Assembly: GCA_025062325.1 (NCBI GenBank)
Contig: JANXAL010000112.1
Coordinates: 1-64,000, forward strand
Reading direction: 5' to 3'
DNA from: Roseiflexus sp.
GTDB taxonomy: Bacteria; Chloroflexota; Chloroflexia; Chloroflexales; Roseiflexaceae
Length of the DNA: 64,000 bases
A model generated the notes under the pieces. It did not search any database. It was not told where the DNA came from and saw only the letters and a list, made by a program, of their open reading frames with translations. Shown one piece after another: positions 16,696-29,312 of the stretch. Position 1 is the first letter of the stretch, and each line of letters starts with the position of its first letter. Made by a program: the position numbers and the translations under genes.

Positions 16696-18276
16696 TCAGC
16701 GAGCTAGTCGAAGTGAGTCCATCAGCCGGTCAATCAGCGTGTTGGCGTAAAAGCCGTTCTTGAGGTGGACATAGAGCGCCCGCCAGGCAGGGCGGCTTGC
16801 CAGCGCCGGTAAGAAGGCGCTGAGCGCCATCACCACGCCAGAGGCAACGACTGCAATCACGACTGCAACCATCGTCGGCGCATTGAGCGGCGGATACACT
16901 GCTATTGCCCGACCGAGCAGCGCCTCAGCGGTCACTTCCAGCGCAAAGAAGGCAATCGTTACCAGGACAGCCATTGCCGTCGTGCGCGTGATGACGTAGA
17001 GAGGCGCGCGATTGGTGTTGCCCTTCACCAGCAGATAAGCGACGGCAAGCATAAAAATGGTGATTGTCGCGGTTTCTCCCGGTCGTTTGGTGATGTCGAT
17101 GCCAATTGCAGTGGCGACTGCCAGAAAGATGACCACTGCTAGGGCCATGTTCGCAAGCAGACTGAGCAGATGCGGCGCGGTATCCAGCTTCTGAGCGCCG
17201 GTGTTCCGCACGTACTCGATGATGCTGCCCGATGATAGGAAGGCGTGCGCCTTGTAGCAGGAATGAGCGATAAGATGCATTATTGCGACAGTGTGCGCGC
17301 CAAACCCGCATAGCATCAGCATGAACCCCATGTGCGCCGCGCTCGAATATGCCAGCGAGACCTTGACAGCGGTCTGCGTAATCATTGAGGACGATGCGAA
17401 GATCGCAGTGAACCCGCCAAGCGCAATCAGCAGAATCAGCGCCGGAGTTGACAGGAACACTAGTTCGCCAAAGCGCACCACCAGGAAGATGCCTGCATTG
17501 AGCAGACCAGCGTGCAGCAGCGCCGAGACGGGAGTTGGCGTTTCCATCACTTCAAGCAGCCAGCCATGGAACGGGAACATTGCTGACTTCAGCGCCGCAA
17601 CGATCACGATTAGGACTGCGGCAACAGTAGCGTTCGCGGGGATGTTGCCACTCGCAAGCGCTGCCGCAGCCGCCTCGCGGATCATGCCCAGGTCGGTCGT
17701 GCCGAAGGTCTGCGCGAGGAGCACAGCGGCAACGATCAGACACACATCGCCGATGCGAGCGAAGATAAACTTCTTGCGGGCTGCCCGAATAGCGCGCGGG
17801 CGCTCAGGGTAGAACACCAGCAGTTCGTGCAGCGCGAGGCTCATCCCAATCCACGCCAGCGTCAGTTGCCAGAGATTGCCCGACAGCACCATCAATAGAA
17901 CGGCGCTGACCGTCAGGTAGAGGCGGATGAAGAAGATCCTCTGGCGCGGGTCGCCGTCAAGATAGTTGCGGCTGAACTGGATGAGCAACGTGCCTAGCAA
18001 CGTCACCAGCCATGACATCATGACGCTCAATGCATCAAGACGCAGCGCAAGGCCAGCGTCGCCGACGCCGATCAACGGACTGACCATCGGACCAGAGGTG
18101 AAGACCATTATTCCAAGTCCGAGCAGCAGCCCGAACGAACCAATGCTAGCCGCGCGTCCGAGCTGGAACGTCAGATTAACCGACCGCGTCAGGGACGCGA
18201 TAAGCGCCGCGACTGCCAGCGACAGCGGTGCAAGATACCCGAGCAGCGCCAGATTGCCGACCACCGTACTGTCCAT
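16696..18276 (-). CDS. dabB: proton-conducting membrane subunit DabB (NuoL/MrpA-like)
   Basis: The 526-residue protein has about 13-14 membrane segments and resembles the antiporter-like subunits of complex I. Typical blocks are LALHELLVFYPERPRAIRAA, KSAMFPFHGWLLEVMETPTP-VSALLHAGLLNAG and LAYSSAAHMGFML. In DAB systems it conducts H+ or Na+ and energises the DabA reaction. The adjacent dabA, rather than nuo or mrp genes, shows it is not a respiratory subunit. It is the first gene of the operon, behind the promoter with the shared 35-bp element. Confidence 0.9.
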   Translation of the reverse strand: MDSTVVGNLALLGYLAPLSLAVAALIASLTRSVNLTFQLGRAASIGSFGLLLGLGIMVFTSGPMVSPLIGVGDAGLALRLDALSVMMSWLVTLLGTLLIQFSRNYLDGDPRQRIFFIRLYLTVSAVLLMVLSGNLWQLTLAWIGMSLALHELLVFYPERPRAIRAARKKFIFARIGDVCLIVAAVLLAQTFGTTDLGMIREAAAAALASGNIPANATVAAVLIVIVAALKSAMFPFHGWLLEVMETPTPVSALLHAGLLNAGIFLVVRFGELVFLSTPALILLIALGGFTAIFASSSMITQTAVKVSLAYSSAAHMGFMLMLCGFGAHTVAIMHLIAHSCYKAHAFLSSGSIIEYVRNTGAQKLDTAPHLLSLLANMALAVVIFLAVATAIGIDITKRPGETATITIFMLAVAYLLVKGNTNRAPLYVITRTTAMAVLVTIAFFALEVTAEALLGRAIAVYPPLNAPTMVAVVIAVVASGVVMALSAFLPALASRPAWRALYVHLKNGFYANTLIDRLMDSLRLAR

Positions 18277-22467: not shown

Positions 22468-22911
22468 CTATGATGACCCGCTCCCTGCAACAATCTGCTC
22501 TTCATCGACTCCCGGCGCCACCTCGATTGGAATATCAGTCTCGCGGAGCAACCGCGTCACAATGTCGCCGGTGAACCAGTGCCGCCAGGTGCGCGGACGC
22601 GGCTTGCCAACAATGATGCGTTGCACGTTATGATCGTGTGCGTAGCGAAGGATAGTATCGACAACCCGGTGACTATCGATGACCTTGACATGGGCGCCCA
22701 AGTCGCGCGCCAGGCGCAGGTTGCGCTCCAGTTGCTGAGCCGCGCGCGCCGGACGGCGCGTGGCAGCGCCTGGCGGCTCGACGTGCAGCGCCAGGAGCTC
22801 GGCGCCAAGTTCGACCCCAACACGCGCCGCATGGCGAATAACCGCCTGTGATTGCTCTTCCTCGCTAATGCAGACCAGAATGCGCACCGGCGCAGCACGT
22901 TGTTCGGTCAC
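22468..22911 (-). CDS. UspA-like domain protein (KdpD-type)
   Basis: The 147-residue protein from the GTG at 22911 has a universal-stress-protein fold (VRILVCISEEEQSQAVIRHA ... NVQRIIVGKPRPRTWRHWF ... ETDIPIEV). The RIIVGKPRPRTW-RHWFTGDIVTRLLRE ending is closest to the Usp domain of KdpD sensors, so it probably binds a nucleotide. A frame from 22971 would overlap the ATPase gene by 43 nt. It follows the degenerate P-type ATPase by 17 nt and is likely co-transcribed with it; K+-related sensing is only a guess. Confidence 0.8.
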   Translation of the reverse strand: MTEQRAAPVRILVCISEEEQSQAVIRHAARVGVELGAELLALHVEPPGAATRRPARAAQQLERNLRLARDLGAHVKVIDSHRVVDTILRYAHDHNVQRIIVGKPRPRTWRHWFTGDIVTRLLRETDIPIEVAPGVDEEQIVAGSGSS

Positions 22912-22928: not shown

Positions 22929-25718
22929 TCAGAAAGCAAACTGTACCGCCTGATGGCGTCGCTGCCACCATTTGAAAATTTCGTCCACCAGCAGCATAAT
23001 CGGCGGGAAGGAGAGCAGCATCATCCAGTGTTCGGGTTGGGGCGGGACAAAGTTGAAGAGTTCCGCCAGCGGCTCGATGTAGACCAGCGCCAGCATCAGG
23101 ACCACCGAGAAGAGCGTGCCAAACACCAGCGCCCGGTTGGTGAAGAGCCCGATGCGAAAGACCGAACTCCGGCGCGTTCGGCTAGCAAATGCTACGCCGA
23201 CCTGCGCCATCACAATCGCCATATAGGTCAGGGTTGTCGCCTGGGCATAGAGATCGCCGCTATCGTCCATTGGCATGCCTGGTCTCCACCCGGCGCTCCA
23301 GTACGCGGCAAAGAATGCCAGCAACGCCAGCGCTCCCTCCAGAATGCCCAGCATCGCAAAGGTGCGCAACATCGTTTCGCGGTCGAGCAACGGTGCAGTG
23401 CGCGGACGCGGCGGCTGTTCAAGAATGCCCGGTTCAGGCGGTTCAGTGCTCAATGCCACTGATGGCAGCAGTTCTGTTCCCACGTCGATCGCCAGCACTT
23501 GCAACACTGTCAGCGGCAACGGGATGCCAGCGACGACGCTGGCGACGATTACAGCGGCTTCGGCGACGTTATGCGCGAACACATACGCGGCAAGTTTCTG
23601 GATGTTGGCGAACATCGCGCGTCCTTCCTCGATAGCCAGCAGCAGGCCAGCGGGATGTTGCGCATTGAGCACAATATCAGCAGCAGCCAACGCAACCGCC
23701 GTTCCCGACGCGCTGACGACCACCCCGATTTCCGCCTGCCGCAGCGCGGGTGCGTCATTGATGCTGTCCCCCAGAAAAGCAACCACCTCGCCGCGTTGCT
23801 GCAACGCTTCGACGATCCGTCGCTTGTGCGCTGCATCCATTTGCGCAAAGATGACATCTTCCAGCGGCGCAAGCAGCAATCCCAGGTTGGCGCTGCTCAT
23901 TTCATCGAGGTCAGCGCCGGTGACAATCTGGACGTGCGGCGTATCGATCAGCCCTACCCGCCGCGCCGTCGCTTCGGCGGCCAACCCATACGCGCCGGTG
24001 ACGATGATGACCCGAATGCCTGCCTTGCGACACCCTTCGAGCAACTGGACGACTTCCGGCTGGGGCGGCTCCTGAAGCGCAGCGAACCCAAGAAACGTCA
24101 GATCGTGTTCAATATCGCGCGTGCGCCACATCATCCCTTCGTGCGGCTCTTCAAGCGTGCGCGTCGCGAAGGCGACCACCCGCTGACCGGTTCGAGCGTA
24201 ATCATCAATGATGCGCTCAATCTCGCGGCGCGTTGCGTCGTCGAGTTCCATAACCGCTCCTTGGCGCTGAATGGAGACGCTGAGCGACAGAACGACGCGA
24301 CCGGCGCCACGCACATACGCTGCCAGTTCGCGTGTTCCGTCGCGTTCGAGCGCCACCACGACGCTGCCGAGCTGGCGGCGTGGCTCATACGGGAAACTCT
24401 GCAACCGCACTACGTGATTGCCAATCGATGCTTCAGTGATGCCGCCGCGCGCCGCCGTCGCCAGCAACGCACCTTCCAGCGGATCTCCAACGATGTGCCA
24501 GTCGGGATTGCTGGCGTCGGGCGGCAACAGACGCGAGTTGTTGCATAACACCGCAGCGCGCAACACAGCGGTCAGATCGGGGTCCGACGAAACCCGCACC
24601 AGCGCACGTTCGTGCAGGAACGCGCCTTCTGGACGGTAGTTGCTGCCGGTAGTGGTGTAGACCCGTCCCCCCGCCCAGATGGCGTTGACCGTTAGCGCAT
24701 GGCTGGTCAGCGTTTCGACGCGATCCAGACAGAGCACTGTTGCTGAACTCAGGCTTTCGACGCCTGCCAGCCGACGCACCAGCACGCCATAGCGCGCCAG
24801 GCGTCGCCGCGCCAGCGCCAGCGCCAGCGTGACGGTCGGCAGCAATCCTTCCGGGACAAAGGCGACGATCATGCCGATGGCGAAGATGATACCAGCCTGA
24901 ATCGAGAACTGTTGCCCTAGAACCGTTAGCAGGAAGGCGCCGATACCGGCGACAACCGCTACGCGGGTGATAGTGGCGGCAAGGGTGTTCAGCGCCTGTC
25001 CTAGCGGACTGGGTTCGGTGCGGAGCGCGGCAGTGCTTTCGGCAATCGTGCCCAGAAGGGTTTGCATGCCGGTATGCACCGCGACCAGGCTGCCCTGCCC
25101 TTCAAACACCACGGTTCCTGCTAGCAGAATATTGGGGCGTTCCGCTAGCGCCAGCGTCGGGTCGGGCATAGCGCCAGCCACTTTGGTGACCGGCGCGGCA
25201 TTGCCGGTCAGCGCCGTCTGCTTGACGCGCAATCCCTCGCTGGAGATCAGGTAGCCGTCTGCCACGACGACCGTGCCCGGCTTCAGGGGCAGAATATCTC
25301 CGGGCACAACCTCAGTGGTCGGAATCTGGCGCACCTGCCCGGCGCGGCGCACATAGGTGGTTGCGGGGAGGAGTTGACGGAGGGCAGCGATGGCACGCTC
25401 GGCAAGGTATTCCTGCCAGGCAGTGAAAACACCATTCAGGAAAGCAACCGCCAGGATGACCCAACCAATAAGCGGCGTATCGCTGAAAAACGCCAGGAGA
25501 CCGGCGATCAGCAGGATCAGGGAAATCCAGTTGACGAACGACGCAATCAGACGGCGCAGGGTAGAGACCGGCAAGGTGTCGGCAATCGCATTGGGACCGT
25601 AACGTTCCCGGCGTTTACGCGCCTCTGTTTCATCAAGGCCGTGCGGTGCGGTTTGCAACGCAGCGCAGACCTCGAGCGGCGACATCGCCGCAAGCTGATC
25701 GAGCGAGTGGTCCGACAC
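22929..25718 (-). CDS. P-type ATPase homologue with degenerate catalytic motifs
   Basis: The 929-residue protein has the full P2-type layout: cation ATPase N-terminus, membrane segments (about 60-100, 250-300, and six near the C-terminus), actuator, P and N domains, and PEGL at 289-292. Key catalytic sequences differ from the family. TGES is TGNA (171-174). DKTGT is DRVET (332-336, aspartate kept). KGA is RGAG (470-473). TGD is TGA (574-576). GDGxND is GDSIND (650-655). Normal phosphoenzyme turnover seems unlikely, yet the frame is intact at full length, suggesting a sensory or scaffolding role. It starts 19 nt after nuoE and precedes a UspA-like gene. Confidence 0.88.
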   Translation of the reverse strand: MSDHSLDQLAAMSPLEVCAALQTAPHGLDETEARKRRERYGPNAIADTLPVSTLRRLIASFVNWISLILLIAGLLAFFSDTPLIGWVILAVAFLNGVFTAWQEYLAERAIAALRQLLPATTYVRRAGQVRQIPTTEVVPGDILPLKPGTVVVADGYLISSEGLRVKQTALTGNAAPVTKVAGAMPDPTLALAERPNILLAGTVVFEGQGSLVAVHTGMQTLLGTIAESTAALRTEPSPLGQALNTLAATITRVAVVAGIGAFLLTVLGQQFSIQAGIIFAIGMIVAFVPEGLLPTVTLALALARRRLARYGVLVRRLAGVESLSSATVLCLDRVETLTSHALTVNAIWAGGRVYTTTGSNYRPEGAFLHERALVRVSSDPDLTAVLRAAVLCNNSRLLPPDASNPDWHIVGDPLEGALLATAARGGITEASIGNHVVRLQSFPYEPRRQLGSVVVALERDGTRELAAYVRGAGRVVLSLSVSIQRQGAVMELDDATRREIERIIDDYARTGQRVVAFATRTLEEPHEGMMWRTRDIEHDLTFLGFAALQEPPQPEVVQLLEGCRKAGIRVIIVTGAYGLAAEATARRVGLIDTPHVQIVTGADLDEMSSANLGLLLAPLEDVIFAQMDAAHKRRIVEALQQRGEVVAFLGDSINDAPALRQAEIGVVVSASGTAVALAAADIVLNAQHPAGLLLAIEEGRAMFANIQKLAAYVFAHNVAEAAVIVASVVAGIPLPLTVLQVLAIDVGTELLPSVALSTEPPEPGILEQPPRPRTAPLLDRETMLRTFAMLGILEGALALLAFFAAYWSAGWRPGMPMDDSGDLYAQATTLTYMAIVMAQVGVAFASRTRRSSVFRIGLFTNRALVFGTLFSVVLMLALVYIEPLAELFNFVPPQPEHWMMLLSFPPIMLLVDEIFKWWQRRHQAVQFAF

Positions 25719-25737: not shown

Positions 25738-26262
25738 TTATCGGTCTGCGTACCGCCCGGAGATGCTGAGTTTCTCGCCAGACTCTGCGCGCTGGCGGAG
25801 TTCTGCCAGCACGGCTTCGACCTTCTCCGGCGTGGTCAGGTCGTGGTAGTATTCCAGGTTCGCCTGCAACACCGGCGCGTGGTCGCAGTCTGCCAGGCAT
25901 TTGACCCGCTGCAATGTGAACATACCGTCGGGCGTTGTCTGATCTACTGGAATTCCCAGTTTCTCTTGCAAAGTGGCGATCAGGTCTTCAGCGCCGCAAA
26001 ATGCACATGGCACATCATCACACACCTGCAAAACCCACCTGCCCACTGGTTGCGTATACAGCAGCGAGTAAAAACCGGCAACTTCGAACACATCGGTCGG
26101 CGGCATATCGAGCAGGTCTGCCACTTCGCGCATAGCTGCATCGGTCAGATACCCGTACTCGTCCTGCGCAATGAAGAGCAGCGGCAAAACTGCGCTGCGT
26201 TTCTGAGGGTAGCGTGCCAGGATTGATTCAATCTCGGCGCCGTATTTTTCGATTAGAGACAT
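25738..26262 (-). CDS. nuoE: NADH-quinone oxidoreductase subunit E
   Basis: The 174-residue thioredoxin-like [2Fe-2S] subunit shows an N-terminal helical part (YPQKRSAVLPLLFIAQDEYG), VFEVAGFYSLL, and four cluster cysteines in CDDVPC and CLADC. An extra cysteine follows at AFCG. It is part of the peripheral NADH-oxidising arm of complex I. Normally nuoF follows; here the next gene is the P-type ATPase homologue, so nuoF must be elsewhere. The start MSLIEKYG at 26262 is preferred; an upstream ATG at 26277 is possible. A gap of about 270 bp separates it from nuoD. Confidence 0.93.
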   Translation of the reverse strand: MSLIEKYGAEIESILARYPQKRSAVLPLLFIAQDEYGYLTDAAMREVADLLDMPPTDVFEVAGFYSLLYTQPVGRWVLQVCDDVPCAFCGAEDLIATLQEKLGIPVDQTTPDGMFTLQRVKCLADCDHAPVLQANLEYYHDLTTPEKVEAVLAELRQRAESGEKLSISGRYADR

Positions 26263-26530
26263 ACCGGATTCTCGCATCTCATAGAGCGATCAACCAGATA
26301 TTGCACCATCTGACATATGGCGACTGTTCTCATGATTGGCGTTAACTGCGCCGGTCGAAGCCAATGTCAATTCACTTACAGATGGGGCCCCACTGTCTCG
26401 ATTGATGTTGATCGCTCTCTTAAGTTTACAGCATTTCTTGAAAAAGGTTGACACGAAGACCCAAAGACGCATAGCCTGCCCCAATACAACACGCCTTGGC
26501 GCTTCAGCGTCAGCCTTTGTGACAATCCTG

Positions 26531-27784
26531 CTAGCGATCAACCTCGCCAAGTACTGGATCAAGCGAGGCGATGAGCGCCACTAGATCGGCGACCAGATGA
26601 CCCCGCGCCATGTGCGGCAGCGATTGGAGATTGACAAACGAGGGTGCGCGAAAATGGACCCGATATGGTTTGGCGCTGCCATCGCTGACAATATACGTCG
26701 CCAGTTCGCCGCGCGGCGACTCGACTGCCGCCAGCGCATCGCCGCGCGGCGGCTTGAAACCCTCGGTCCACAACTTGAAATGATGGATGAGCGCTTCCAT
26801 GCTGTGCGTAATTTCGCTTTTCGGCGGTGGCGCAATCTTGCGATCTGGCGTTATGTACGGTCCTGGCCCAAGGTCGCGCAACCGCTGCAACGCCTGGCGG
26901 CAGATCGAGACGCTTTCGCGCATTTCTGCAATCCGCACCAGATAGCGGTCGTAAATATCGCCGTGGGTGGCGGTCGGGATAGCGAAGGAATAGGTTTCGT
27001 AGCCGCAGTAGGGCATGGTTTTGCGCAGGTCCCACGCCACGCCGGTAGCGCGCAGGCTCGGTCCGGTCAGCCCCAGCGCAATCGCCGCTTCGCTATCGAT
27101 AACGCCAATGCCTTGGGTGCGCTCAATCCAGAGCGGATTGTCGGTCAGCAGGGCTTCATACTCATCGATGCGTCCTGGCATGATTTGCAGAAACGCTTCT
27201 ACAGCGGCGTCGAACTCAGCCGGCAGGTCATACGCCAGTCCGCCGACGCGAAAGTAACTGGTCATCATGCGCGCGCCTGAGACCAGTTCAAAGATGTCGA
27301 GGATCTGTTCACGTTCGCGGAAGCTGTAGAGAAACACACTCATCGCTGCTAGATCGAGCGCATGGGTGCCGAGCCACACCAGGTGGCTGGCAATCCGTTG
27401 CAATTCGACCAGCAGCACGCGCGCAACGGTTGCGCGCTCCGGCACCTCGCACCCGAGCAGTTTCTCGACTGCCAGCACATAACTCAGGTTATTGGAGAGC
27501 GGCGCCAGATAATCGGTGCGATCGGTCAGCACGAGCGCTTTCTGGTACGTCTTGCTCTCCATTGTTTTTTCGATGCCCGTGTGGAGGTATCCGATATCGG
27601 GCGCCACATCGACCACGGTTTCGCCCTCGAGTTCGACCACCAACCGCAGCACGCCGTGGGTGCTGGGGTGATGCGGACCCATGTTCAGCACCATGGTCTC
27701 TTTCGCCCCTTCAAGCGCCGGACGGATAATCTGACTAGGCGCTGGGATGCTCAGATTGCGCGCGCGGGTGTCTGCAACGGTCAT
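26531..27784 (-). CDS. nuoD: NADH-quinone oxidoreductase subunit D
   Basis: The 417-residue 49-kDa subunit contains the conserved NMGPHHPSTHGVLRLV-ELEGE block at about 32-55, IGYLHTGIEKTMESKTY, and YVVSDGSAKPYR-like sequence (YIVSDGSAKPYRVHFRAPSF) near the C-terminus, ending DPVLGEVDR. It helps form the quinone-reduction chamber of complex I. It follows nuoC by 6 nt, so the two are tightly coupled. Confidence 0.96.
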   Translation of the reverse strand: MTVADTRARNLSIPAPSQIIRPALEGAKETMVLNMGPHHPSTHGVLRLVVELEGETVVDVAPDIGYLHTGIEKTMESKTYQKALVLTDRTDYLAPLSNNLSYVLAVEKLLGCEVPERATVARVLLVELQRIASHLVWLGTHALDLAAMSVFLYSFREREQILDIFELVSGARMMTSYFRVGGLAYDLPAEFDAAVEAFLQIMPGRIDEYEALLTDNPLWIERTQGIGVIDSEAAIALGLTGPSLRATGVAWDLRKTMPYCGYETYSFAIPTATHGDIYDRYLVRIAEMRESVSICRQALQRLRDLGPGPYITPDRKIAPPPKSEITHSMEALIHHFKLWTEGFKPPRGDALAAVESPRGELATYIVSDGSAKPYRVHFRAPSFVNLQSLPHMARGHLVADLVALIASLDPVLGEVDR

Positions 27785-27790
27785 CGCTGC

Positions 27791-28315
27791 TTACTCCTTC
27801 GCAAACGGCTTATGCGCGTAAATGCGATCCTGGTTGAAGGTGAACGCCACCTCTTCGGCGCCGAGCGGCACATCTTTCCGCAGCGGATGACCTTCCCAAT
27901 CTTCTGGCATCAGAATGCGGTCGAGGCAAGGGTGACCGATGAACTTGATGCCAAACATATCGAACGTCTCCCGCTCGTGGTAATTGGCGCCGGGCCAGAG
28001 TTCGGTCAGCGAAGGAACCGACGGATCGTGTTCGCTGACGCCGACTTTCAGGCAGATACGGTGGCGATTGGTGAATGACAGCAGGTGATAGACAACCTCA
28101 AAGCGCGGCTCGCGCCCAAGATAATCGACGCCGCACAAGTTTTCGAGGAAATTGTAGCGCAGTTCCGGGTCATCGCGCAGAAAGCGCGCTACGTCAACAA
28201 TCCGTTCCGGGCGAACGTAGACGCTCAAATCGCCGCGAAACTCCGATGACCCAAGGATAGCGTCCGGCAGCGCCGCCTGTAATCGCGCTAGGACCGTTGC
28301 ATTATCGAGCGCCAT
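27791..28315 (-). CDS. nuoC: NADH-quinone oxidoreductase subunit C
   Basis: The 174-residue 30-kDa subunit has the family block [18 protein letters not shown] and the signature [19 protein letters not shown] with [11 protein letters not shown]. It belongs to the connecting module of complex I. The start MALDNATVL at 28315 is the sensible one; the frame extends to 28369 without support. Confidence 0.95.
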
Positions 28316-28384
28316 TGGTGTTCTCCTGGCACAGAACCGGGTGGCAGGCTGCAGCGTGCATGCCCGCACTAGAAACCCTTCTCT

Positions 28385-28888
28385 CTAAGACAGCCGCAAT
28401 GGTTCGCGCAGCGTGCCGTCGAGCCGCATATGCCGAACCTTTTCGTGCAGGCGGATGATGCCGTCGATCAACGCCTCAGGGCGCGGCGGGCAACCGGCGA
28501 TATACACGTCGACCGGCACAATTTCATCAACGCCTTGCACGATGGCGTAGTTGTTGAACACACCGCCGCATGCTGCGCAATCACCCATAGCAATGACCCA
28601 TTTCGGATCGGCCATCTGGTCGTAGAGGCGGCGCACCACTGGCGCCATCTTGCGCGACACGCGCCCCGCGACAATCATTAGGTCCGCCTGGCGCGGCGAC
28701 GCGCGGTTGATCTCCATGCCGAACCGCGACAGATCGTAATTGGCGCCCTGCGCACCCATCATTTCAATAGCACAGCATGCCAGCCCGAACAACAAGGGCC
28801 ACATCGCGTTGGAACGACCCCAATTCACCACCTGCTCGAGCGAGGCGGTGACGATTCCCATATCGCCTGCTTTCTGCTCTATTCCCAT
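28385..28888 (-). CDS. nuoB: NADH-quinone oxidoreductase subunit B
   Basis: The 167-residue subunit carries the N2 [4Fe-4S] cluster ligands: adjacent cysteines in LACCAIEMM, one in GDCAACGG and one in [10 protein letters not shown]. It passes electrons to quinone. The ATG at 28888 overlaps the end of nuoA by 10 nt, with GGAG just upstream, so translation is coupled. Confidence 0.96.
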
Positions 28889-29235
28889 CGCAAGGCTCCT
28901 CGCCGCCATTCATACACTATGCCAATCACCAGCACCGCGAAGAACACTCCCACCGCCGCTAGACCTGGAACGCCAAGTTGCCGATACACCAGCGCATAGG
29001 GGAAAAGGAAGATAATCTCGATATCGAACAGAATGAACAGCATCGCTACCAGGTTGAATTTGATCGGAAAGCGACGCTGCGCCGGACCAATTGGCTCCAT
29101 GCCTGATTCATAGGGCATCAACTTGCGCCGGTTGGGGCGCTGCGGTCCCAGGTAGCGAGAAAGCACCGTCACGAAGACGGCGATGAACATCGCCACCAGG
29201 AACAGCGTCAGAATAGGCAGATAGTCGATCAGCAT
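28879..29235 (-). CDS. nuoA: NADH-quinone oxidoreductase subunit A
   Basis: The 118-residue protein has three membrane segments and the family sequence [20 protein letters not shown]. It is a membrane-arm subunit of complex I near the quinone site and is the first gene of the nuoABCDE operon here. The start [12 protein letters not shown] at 29235 has a purine-rich AAGGAGC upstream. Confidence 0.94.
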
Positions 29236-29312
29236 CAACGGCTCCTTGCTGCAACGGAGCAATTGGGGCGTCAGGCAGCGACGCCTGCGCAGAGGTATGC
29301 GGGATACATGGC

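Follow-up and report, generated by a model that had tools for sequence, protein, structure and literature searches.

A catalytically rewritten descendant of P2C-type P-type ATPases in Roseiflexus, encoded next to a KdpD-type Usp gene

The nearest known case to the protein described here is TMEM94/ERMA, a human ER protein whose pumping is disputed in print. It has the P-type fold, TGES is absent, and its P-domain motifs are altered, with DKQGI for DKTGT and GSSANL for GDGVND. One group did not find ATPase activity (PMC12134183), whereas the available sections of the other group's paper describe Mg2+ pumping that requires the Asp (PMC13322241). The same sections give the D351N change of SERCA as inactivating (PMC13322241), and in the accessible part of a further study the TGES loop is given as indispensable to dephosphorylation (PMC11977196). 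A second comparison is the potassium system Kdp. There, the Usp-bearing KdpD controls the P-type ATPase KdpB through phosphorylation of the TGES serine, as far as the accessible text of two papers goes (PMC11018627; PMC10654040). We found no report on the present protein, or on bacterial P-type pseudoenzymes, in the open-licence literature searched. A conserved bacterial P-type pseudoenzyme would show the fold kept for non-pumping use, the point that is disputed for TMEM94/ERMA.

The analysed DNA, a 64,000-nucleotide stretch of a Roseiflexus sp. contig (the window), carries the following genes at the locus.

22929..25718, minus strand: P2C-type P-type ATPase gene, putative pseudoenzyme (929 aa, GTG start, open frame)
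22468..22911, minus strand: stand-alone KdpD-type Usp-domain protein (147 aa, GTG start, 17 bp past the pseudoenzyme stop)
25738..26277, minus strand: nuoE, complex I 2Fe-2S subunit (PF01257), 19 bp upstream of the pseudoenzyme
26531..29262, minus strand: nuoD, nuoC, nuoB and nuoA, upstream of the pseudoenzyme on the same strand

Read as the reverse complement, GAGGAG lies immediately 5' of the pseudoenzyme GTG. Pfam recovered the whole P-type architecture in the 929-aa protein (N-terminus, E1-E2, HAD and Cation_ATPase_C); every part of a P2 ATPase is there, from the N-terminus through the A, P and N domains to the membrane region. The best solved relative was Na,K-ATPase alpha-3 (residues 12-922, E 1.8e-106, phmmer). 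A structure prediction made from a 7-sequence alignment had a mean pLDDT of 45.9. As judged from its sequence, the product descends over its full length from the P2C (Na+/K+-type) P-type ATPases, and its catalytic motifs have been rewritten. The motif and ion-site positions are as follows.

25197..25208, minus strand: TGES position, reads TGNA (Glu to Asn, Ser to Ala; residues 171-174)
24843..24854, minus strand: TM4 PEGL ion-site motif, intact (residues 289-292)
24711..24725, minus strand: DKTGT position, reads DRVET (residues 332-336)
24306..24311, minus strand: KGA position, reads RG (residues 470-471)
24060..24071, minus strand: DPPR position, reads EPPQ (residues 550-553; 10/10 genomes)
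23991..23999, minus strand: TGD position, reads TGA (residues 574-576)
23823..23843, minus strand: motif III region, Arg to Gln at 626, catalytic Lys 632 kept (each 10/10)
23754..23774, minus strand: TGDGxND position, reads LGDSIND, both Asp kept (residues 649-655; 10/10)
23559..23573, minus strand: TM5 ion-site residues H716, N717 and E720 (identical in 8/8 full-length orthologues)
23472..23486, minus strand: TM6 ion-site residues D745 and E749 (identical in 8/8 full-length orthologues)

The strings in the protein are LTGNAAP, CLDRVETLT, YVRGAG, VTGAYG and GDSINDAP, with VPEGLLP intact. All motif changes listed in the preliminary description of this DNA are thus present, and three came in addition (DPPR to EPPQ, FAR to FAQ, TGDG to LGDS). 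The changes recurred throughout the 10 carrier genomes described below. The TGES Glu was Asn in 9 of 9 readable orthologues versus Glu in 37 of 37 canonical P2C proteins, and the Ser was Ala in the same nine. Lys was replaced by Arg in all 10 genomes both in DKTGT and in KGA, the latter being Lys in all 37 canonical proteins. The DKTGT Gly was Glu or Asp in 10/10 genomes; the middle Thr was still Thr in three. Both ends of DPPR were replaced throughout (Asp to Glu, Arg to Gln; 10/10), and the TGD Asp was Ala in seven genomes and Gly in three. The Arg before motif III became Gln, the TGDG Thr became Leu and its second Gly became Ser, each in 10/10.

Ten positions, the TGES Glu among them, were replaced in all readable orthologues of the 10 carriers; the canonical residue was present in 37/37 P2C relatives at nine of them and in 36/37 at the tenth (T701), which argues that the replacements are not chance. 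We take the SERCA equivalents of the replaced sites to be E183 to N, K352 to R, G354 to E/D, K515 to R, D601 to E, R604 to Q, D627 to A/G, R678 to Q (the FAR to FAQ change), T701 to L and G704 to S. The codons at these sites vary synonymously among the carriers and the residues hold. Of the near-constant canonical positions (at least 36/37), 21 of 70 in the P domain were lost in all 8 full-length copies versus 11 of 106 elsewhere (Fisher p 0.0013; domain borders drawn by us). For the 37 and 8 counts, proteins of at least 850 aa were used; the shorter G013 protein and two G010 fragments were restored for the 10-genome motif counts. The 37 canonical proteins were chosen by us from the tree as the P2C clade minus the pseudoenzyme clade, L075, L020 and L023.

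Other catalytic residues are kept. The phosphorylation Asp of DKTGT was present in 9/10 genomes and was Asn in G001, on a contig with a coverage of 395. The motif-II Thr was conserved in all 10. Of the features of a functional P-type ATPase, the GDGxND Asp pair and the motif-III Lys were found in 10/10, with the second Gly as Ser. In the membrane, the ion-pocket residues E290, N717, E720, D745 and E749 (TM4, TM5, TM6) were identical in 8/8 full-length orthologues. The HAD core is mostly intact; what has been lost is the dephosphorylation Glu, together with many residues of the loops and the nucleotide side. By descent the protein is a P2C member that lacks the TGES Glu and the DKTGT signature of a working P-type ATPase. 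The preliminary description held that the loss of the TGES Glu and of several phosphate- and Mg-handling residues should prevent normal turnover. The Glu is gone, but the Asp (9/10), the motif-II Thr, the motif-III Lys and the GDGxND Asp pair remain (10/10); since much of the phosphorylation and Mg chemistry is kept, that claim was overstated and is better put as a strong inference from sequence. TMEM94/ERMA differs in being eukaryotic and in its set of losses, both GDGxND Asp being kept here.

Orthologues with the same replacements were found in 10 of 26 genomes of one family, and none had canonical motifs. The carriers were all six genomes searched in the window's own genus (its own genome included), G009 (79% identity), G007 and G013 (57-58%), and G010 (60-64%, two contig-end pieces). 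Among above-threshold matches with loci, no further orthologues were seen in 82 genomes of the order, 158 of the class and 400 of the phylum (overlapping sets). Two of these wide searches considered matches of 1e-170 or stronger, and G168 and the second matches of G237 and G265, which had no loci, were left out.

None of the 8 complete copies had internal stops. Within the genus, the dN/dS of the pseudoenzyme was 0.037-0.081 (15 pairs), and that of the canonical P2C paralogue in the same genomes was 0.072-0.123 (6 pairs); the pseudoenzyme value was the lower one in 6/6 matched pairs. In pairs with the more distant G009 (dS >1.1), it was 0.110-0.122 (6 pairs) and exceeded the paralogue in 4/4 matched pairs. 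The G001 branch, on which the Asp was lost, had 20 non-synonymous to 37 synonymous polarised changes, and its sister G003 had 8 to 15; with no excess of non-synonymous change over G003, no relaxation is visible after the Asp loss. Intact frames and low dN/dS indicate a maintained protein and not decay. Conserved, catalytically disabled proteins are marked by catalytic changes that a whole clade shares and purifying selection maintains, a pattern that this protein shows. The earlier proposal of a full-length P-type pseudoenzyme under selection held up in this respect: the replacements were the same in 10/10 genomes down to 57% identity, and the alignment of homologues that had been suggested as a check returned no canonical orthologues in sister species.

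In two trees, the pseudoenzyme clade grouped with L075 (G027) with full support, among P2C-like sequences and apart from other P2/P3-like paralogues. The trees comprised proteins of at least 850 aa (G013 and the two G010 fragments fall below this). The L075 branch is long and attraction is possible in this grouping. The shared states (TGES Glu lost, Arg to Gln, Thr to Leu, TM5 His and TM6 Glu) favour it, with His and Glu also occurring in some canonical copies. L075 is itself partly decayed: it reads TGTS, EGA, AQ and LGDG, and has kept DKTGT, DPPR and TGD. Its gene (L104:7190-9991) immediately follows a KdpDE-like pair, made up of a DUF4118-HisKA kinase and a response regulator, and sits between this pair and kdpA, which is 3.9 kb away. 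L075 and the natural Asp to Asn copy of G001 together form an evolutionary series in which the importance of single catalytic residues can be tested.

The canonical P2C proteins of Chloroflexota (examples at loci L061-L073 and L084-L101, with flanks of about 1.5 kb) are homologous to the pseudoenzyme over the full length (about 37-43% identity), have the ion-pocket residues in common with it and stem from the same ancestor. In contrast to it, all 37 keep the TGES Glu, the DKTGT Asp and Lys, the KGA Lys, the DPPR Arg, the TGD Asp and the GDGxND Asp pair. The neighbours differ as well. A TrkA (RCK) gene adjoins canonical P2C genes in 31/37 loci, with two TrkA genes in 28, whereas the pseudoenzyme has the KdpD-type Usp gene instead (8/10 genomes). 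No TrkA neighbour was present at the 11 pseudoenzyme-clade loci (10 genomes), nor at L104. TrkA adjacency is a K+-regulation setting for the P2C family, and canonical P2C with TrkA forms an apparent conserved K+/Na+ operon; no report of a P2C-TrkA operon was found, by title and start of abstract, among the matches listed from the open-licence literature. A canonical P2C copy was found in six of the 10 carriers (G000, G003, G004, G005, G009, G010) and in none of G001, G002, G007 and G013, with G002 82% and G013 85% complete. An obligate partnership with the canonical pump was set aside, since four carriers without a canonical copy make such a dependence improbable.

The gene next to the pseudoenzyme was earlier called a KdpD-type Usp, and this assignment was borne out: the best matches of the 22468-22911 product were KdpD Usp domains (NCBIfam KdpD, 3.4e-17; PDB 7ji4 KdpD, 6.5e-7). 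It follows the pseudoenzyme directly in 8/10 genomes, including G010 despite its different surroundings, and no KdpD-type Usp match was obtained anywhere in the carriers G007 and G013. As in KdpD/KdpB, in the accessible accounts of that system, a KdpD-type Usp is paired with a P-type ATPase fold; the ATPase here is P2C and not KdpB. Because the TGES Ser is Ala in 9/9 readable copies, serine phosphorylation of the KdpB type cannot occur in the pseudoenzyme. G010 was the one carrier of the 10 with a KdpA match over 1e-100, and also the one in which a KdpD N-terminal domain passed the cut-off.

Two published ligand motifs were compared with the Usp protein, both as worded in the accessible parts of their sources. 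The c-di-AMP motif of Firmicutes KdpD, (A/G/C)XSXSX2N(Y/F), is absent; the window Usp reads CISEEEQS, and the motif was not seen in the other 7 copies. The Walker A motif of ATP-binding Usp proteins, G-X2-G-X9-G-(S/T), is likewise absent from the window Usp, which reads GKPRPRTWRHWFTGD. Reading of c-di-AMP by the Usp protein was considered, as a diadenylate cyclase family match was obtained in 9/10 carriers (all but G013), yet the published binding motif is missing.

At the level of sequence, the ancestry, the fixed catalytic loss, the kept pocket, the constraint and the linkage to Usp are established. The likeliest reading, to which we give an even chance, is a catalytically disabled P2C protein that Usp reads and that serves as a regulator or as a sensor of K+/Na+ occupancy. 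The pseudoenzyme would no longer run an ATP-driven pump cycle, and its membrane pocket would still bind a monovalent cation. Occupancy by the cation would shift the cytosolic A/P/N head, and this state would be read or set, within a K+/Na+ homeostasis pathway, by the Usp-domain protein or, in genomes that lack Usp, by some other partner. Several observations run against this sensor: dN/dS in the G009 pairs is above that of the paralogue, G007 and G013 have no Usp, the Usp lacks the published ligand motifs, and with the HAD core kept some phosphoryl chemistry may remain. The Usp pairing and the TrkA pairing of the canonical family point to an unstudied potassium/sodium control system. In a wider and doubtful form of the idea, Chloroflexota repeatedly turned TrkA-linked Na+/K+-type pumps into non-pumping membrane K+ regulators. 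The Roseiflexus clade would then have become a receptor for ion occupancy, or a gated cation channel, served by its own stand-alone KdpD-type Usp, and a separate lineage in a sister family would have lost TGES, the TM4 Glu and the Mg Asp and kept DKTGT and the TrkA neighbour. If true, such repeated pump-to-regulator conversion would amount to a receptor class built from the P-type ATPase.

The alternative that survives best, though we consider it unlikely, is a divergent P-type ATPase that is still active, or a slow phosphoprotein switch, with Arg and Glu doing the work of Lys and Asp. Since the TGES glutamate is missing, an aspartyl phosphate would persist for a long time, much like a latch. 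The conserved Asp (9/10), motif-II Thr, motif-III Lys and GDGxND Asp pair fit this, Lys to Arg and Asp to Glu are mild changes, and ERMA/TMEM94, itself without TGES and with DKQGI and GSSANL, is called an active Mg2+ pump by one group in the available part of its paper (PMC13322241). A second group, however, found TMEM94 to be without ATPase activity (PMC12134183). Moreover, ten positions that are constant in canonical relatives were lost together here, and G001 lost the Asp with no visible reduction of constraint.

A former pump that has become a gated cation channel or leak, with its pocket and pathway retained but opened through binding of Usp or a ligand rather than by ATP, appears improbable. 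It would account for the pocket residues conserved in 8/8 orthologues and for the adjoining KdpD-type Usp gene. However, we identified no gate or pore feature in the protein, and TM5-10 is less conserved than in the canonical pump, with invariant fractions of 0.74 and 0.82 in the same five genomes.

The position of the gene directly downstream of nuoA-E raised the idea that the product serves respiratory complex I as an accessory protein or in its assembly, which we regard as very improbable. The order nuoABCDE-pseudoenzyme-Usp held in the genus and in G009 where contigs gave a view: nuoA-nuoB-nuoC-nuoD-nuoE lies directly upstream in the window, G003 and G009, and the shorter compared loci of G002 and G005 have nuoD-nuoE upstream. 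Against this, the pseudoenzyme loci of G007 (with pst genes instead) and G010 have no nuo neighbours, and the nuo-linked genomes share wider synteny, which makes the linkage there weak evidence. A NuoL/Mrp-type proton-channel gene (PF00361, PF00662) is found at 16696-18276 of the window, apart from the nuoA-E cluster.

A recently inactivated, decaying gene would explain the lost catalytic motifs, but is refuted as far as sequence can do so and was ruled out by the stop-free frames of the 8 complete copies and the within-genus dN/dS of 0.037-0.081, along with identical replacements down to 57% identity, encoded by codons that have changed synonymously.

A second degenerate P2-type lineage was seen in a sister family (L161/L105 in G030, L162/L106 in G033, L163/L172 in G036, L164/L171 in G024). 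It lost TGES, the TM4 Glu, the TM5/TM6 pocket and the first GDGxND Asp and kept DKTGT (DQTGT in G024), and TrkA adjoins in 4/4. The G024 copy, L164 (G024:C2, about 443600-446050), is split over two frames, by either decay or assembly error.
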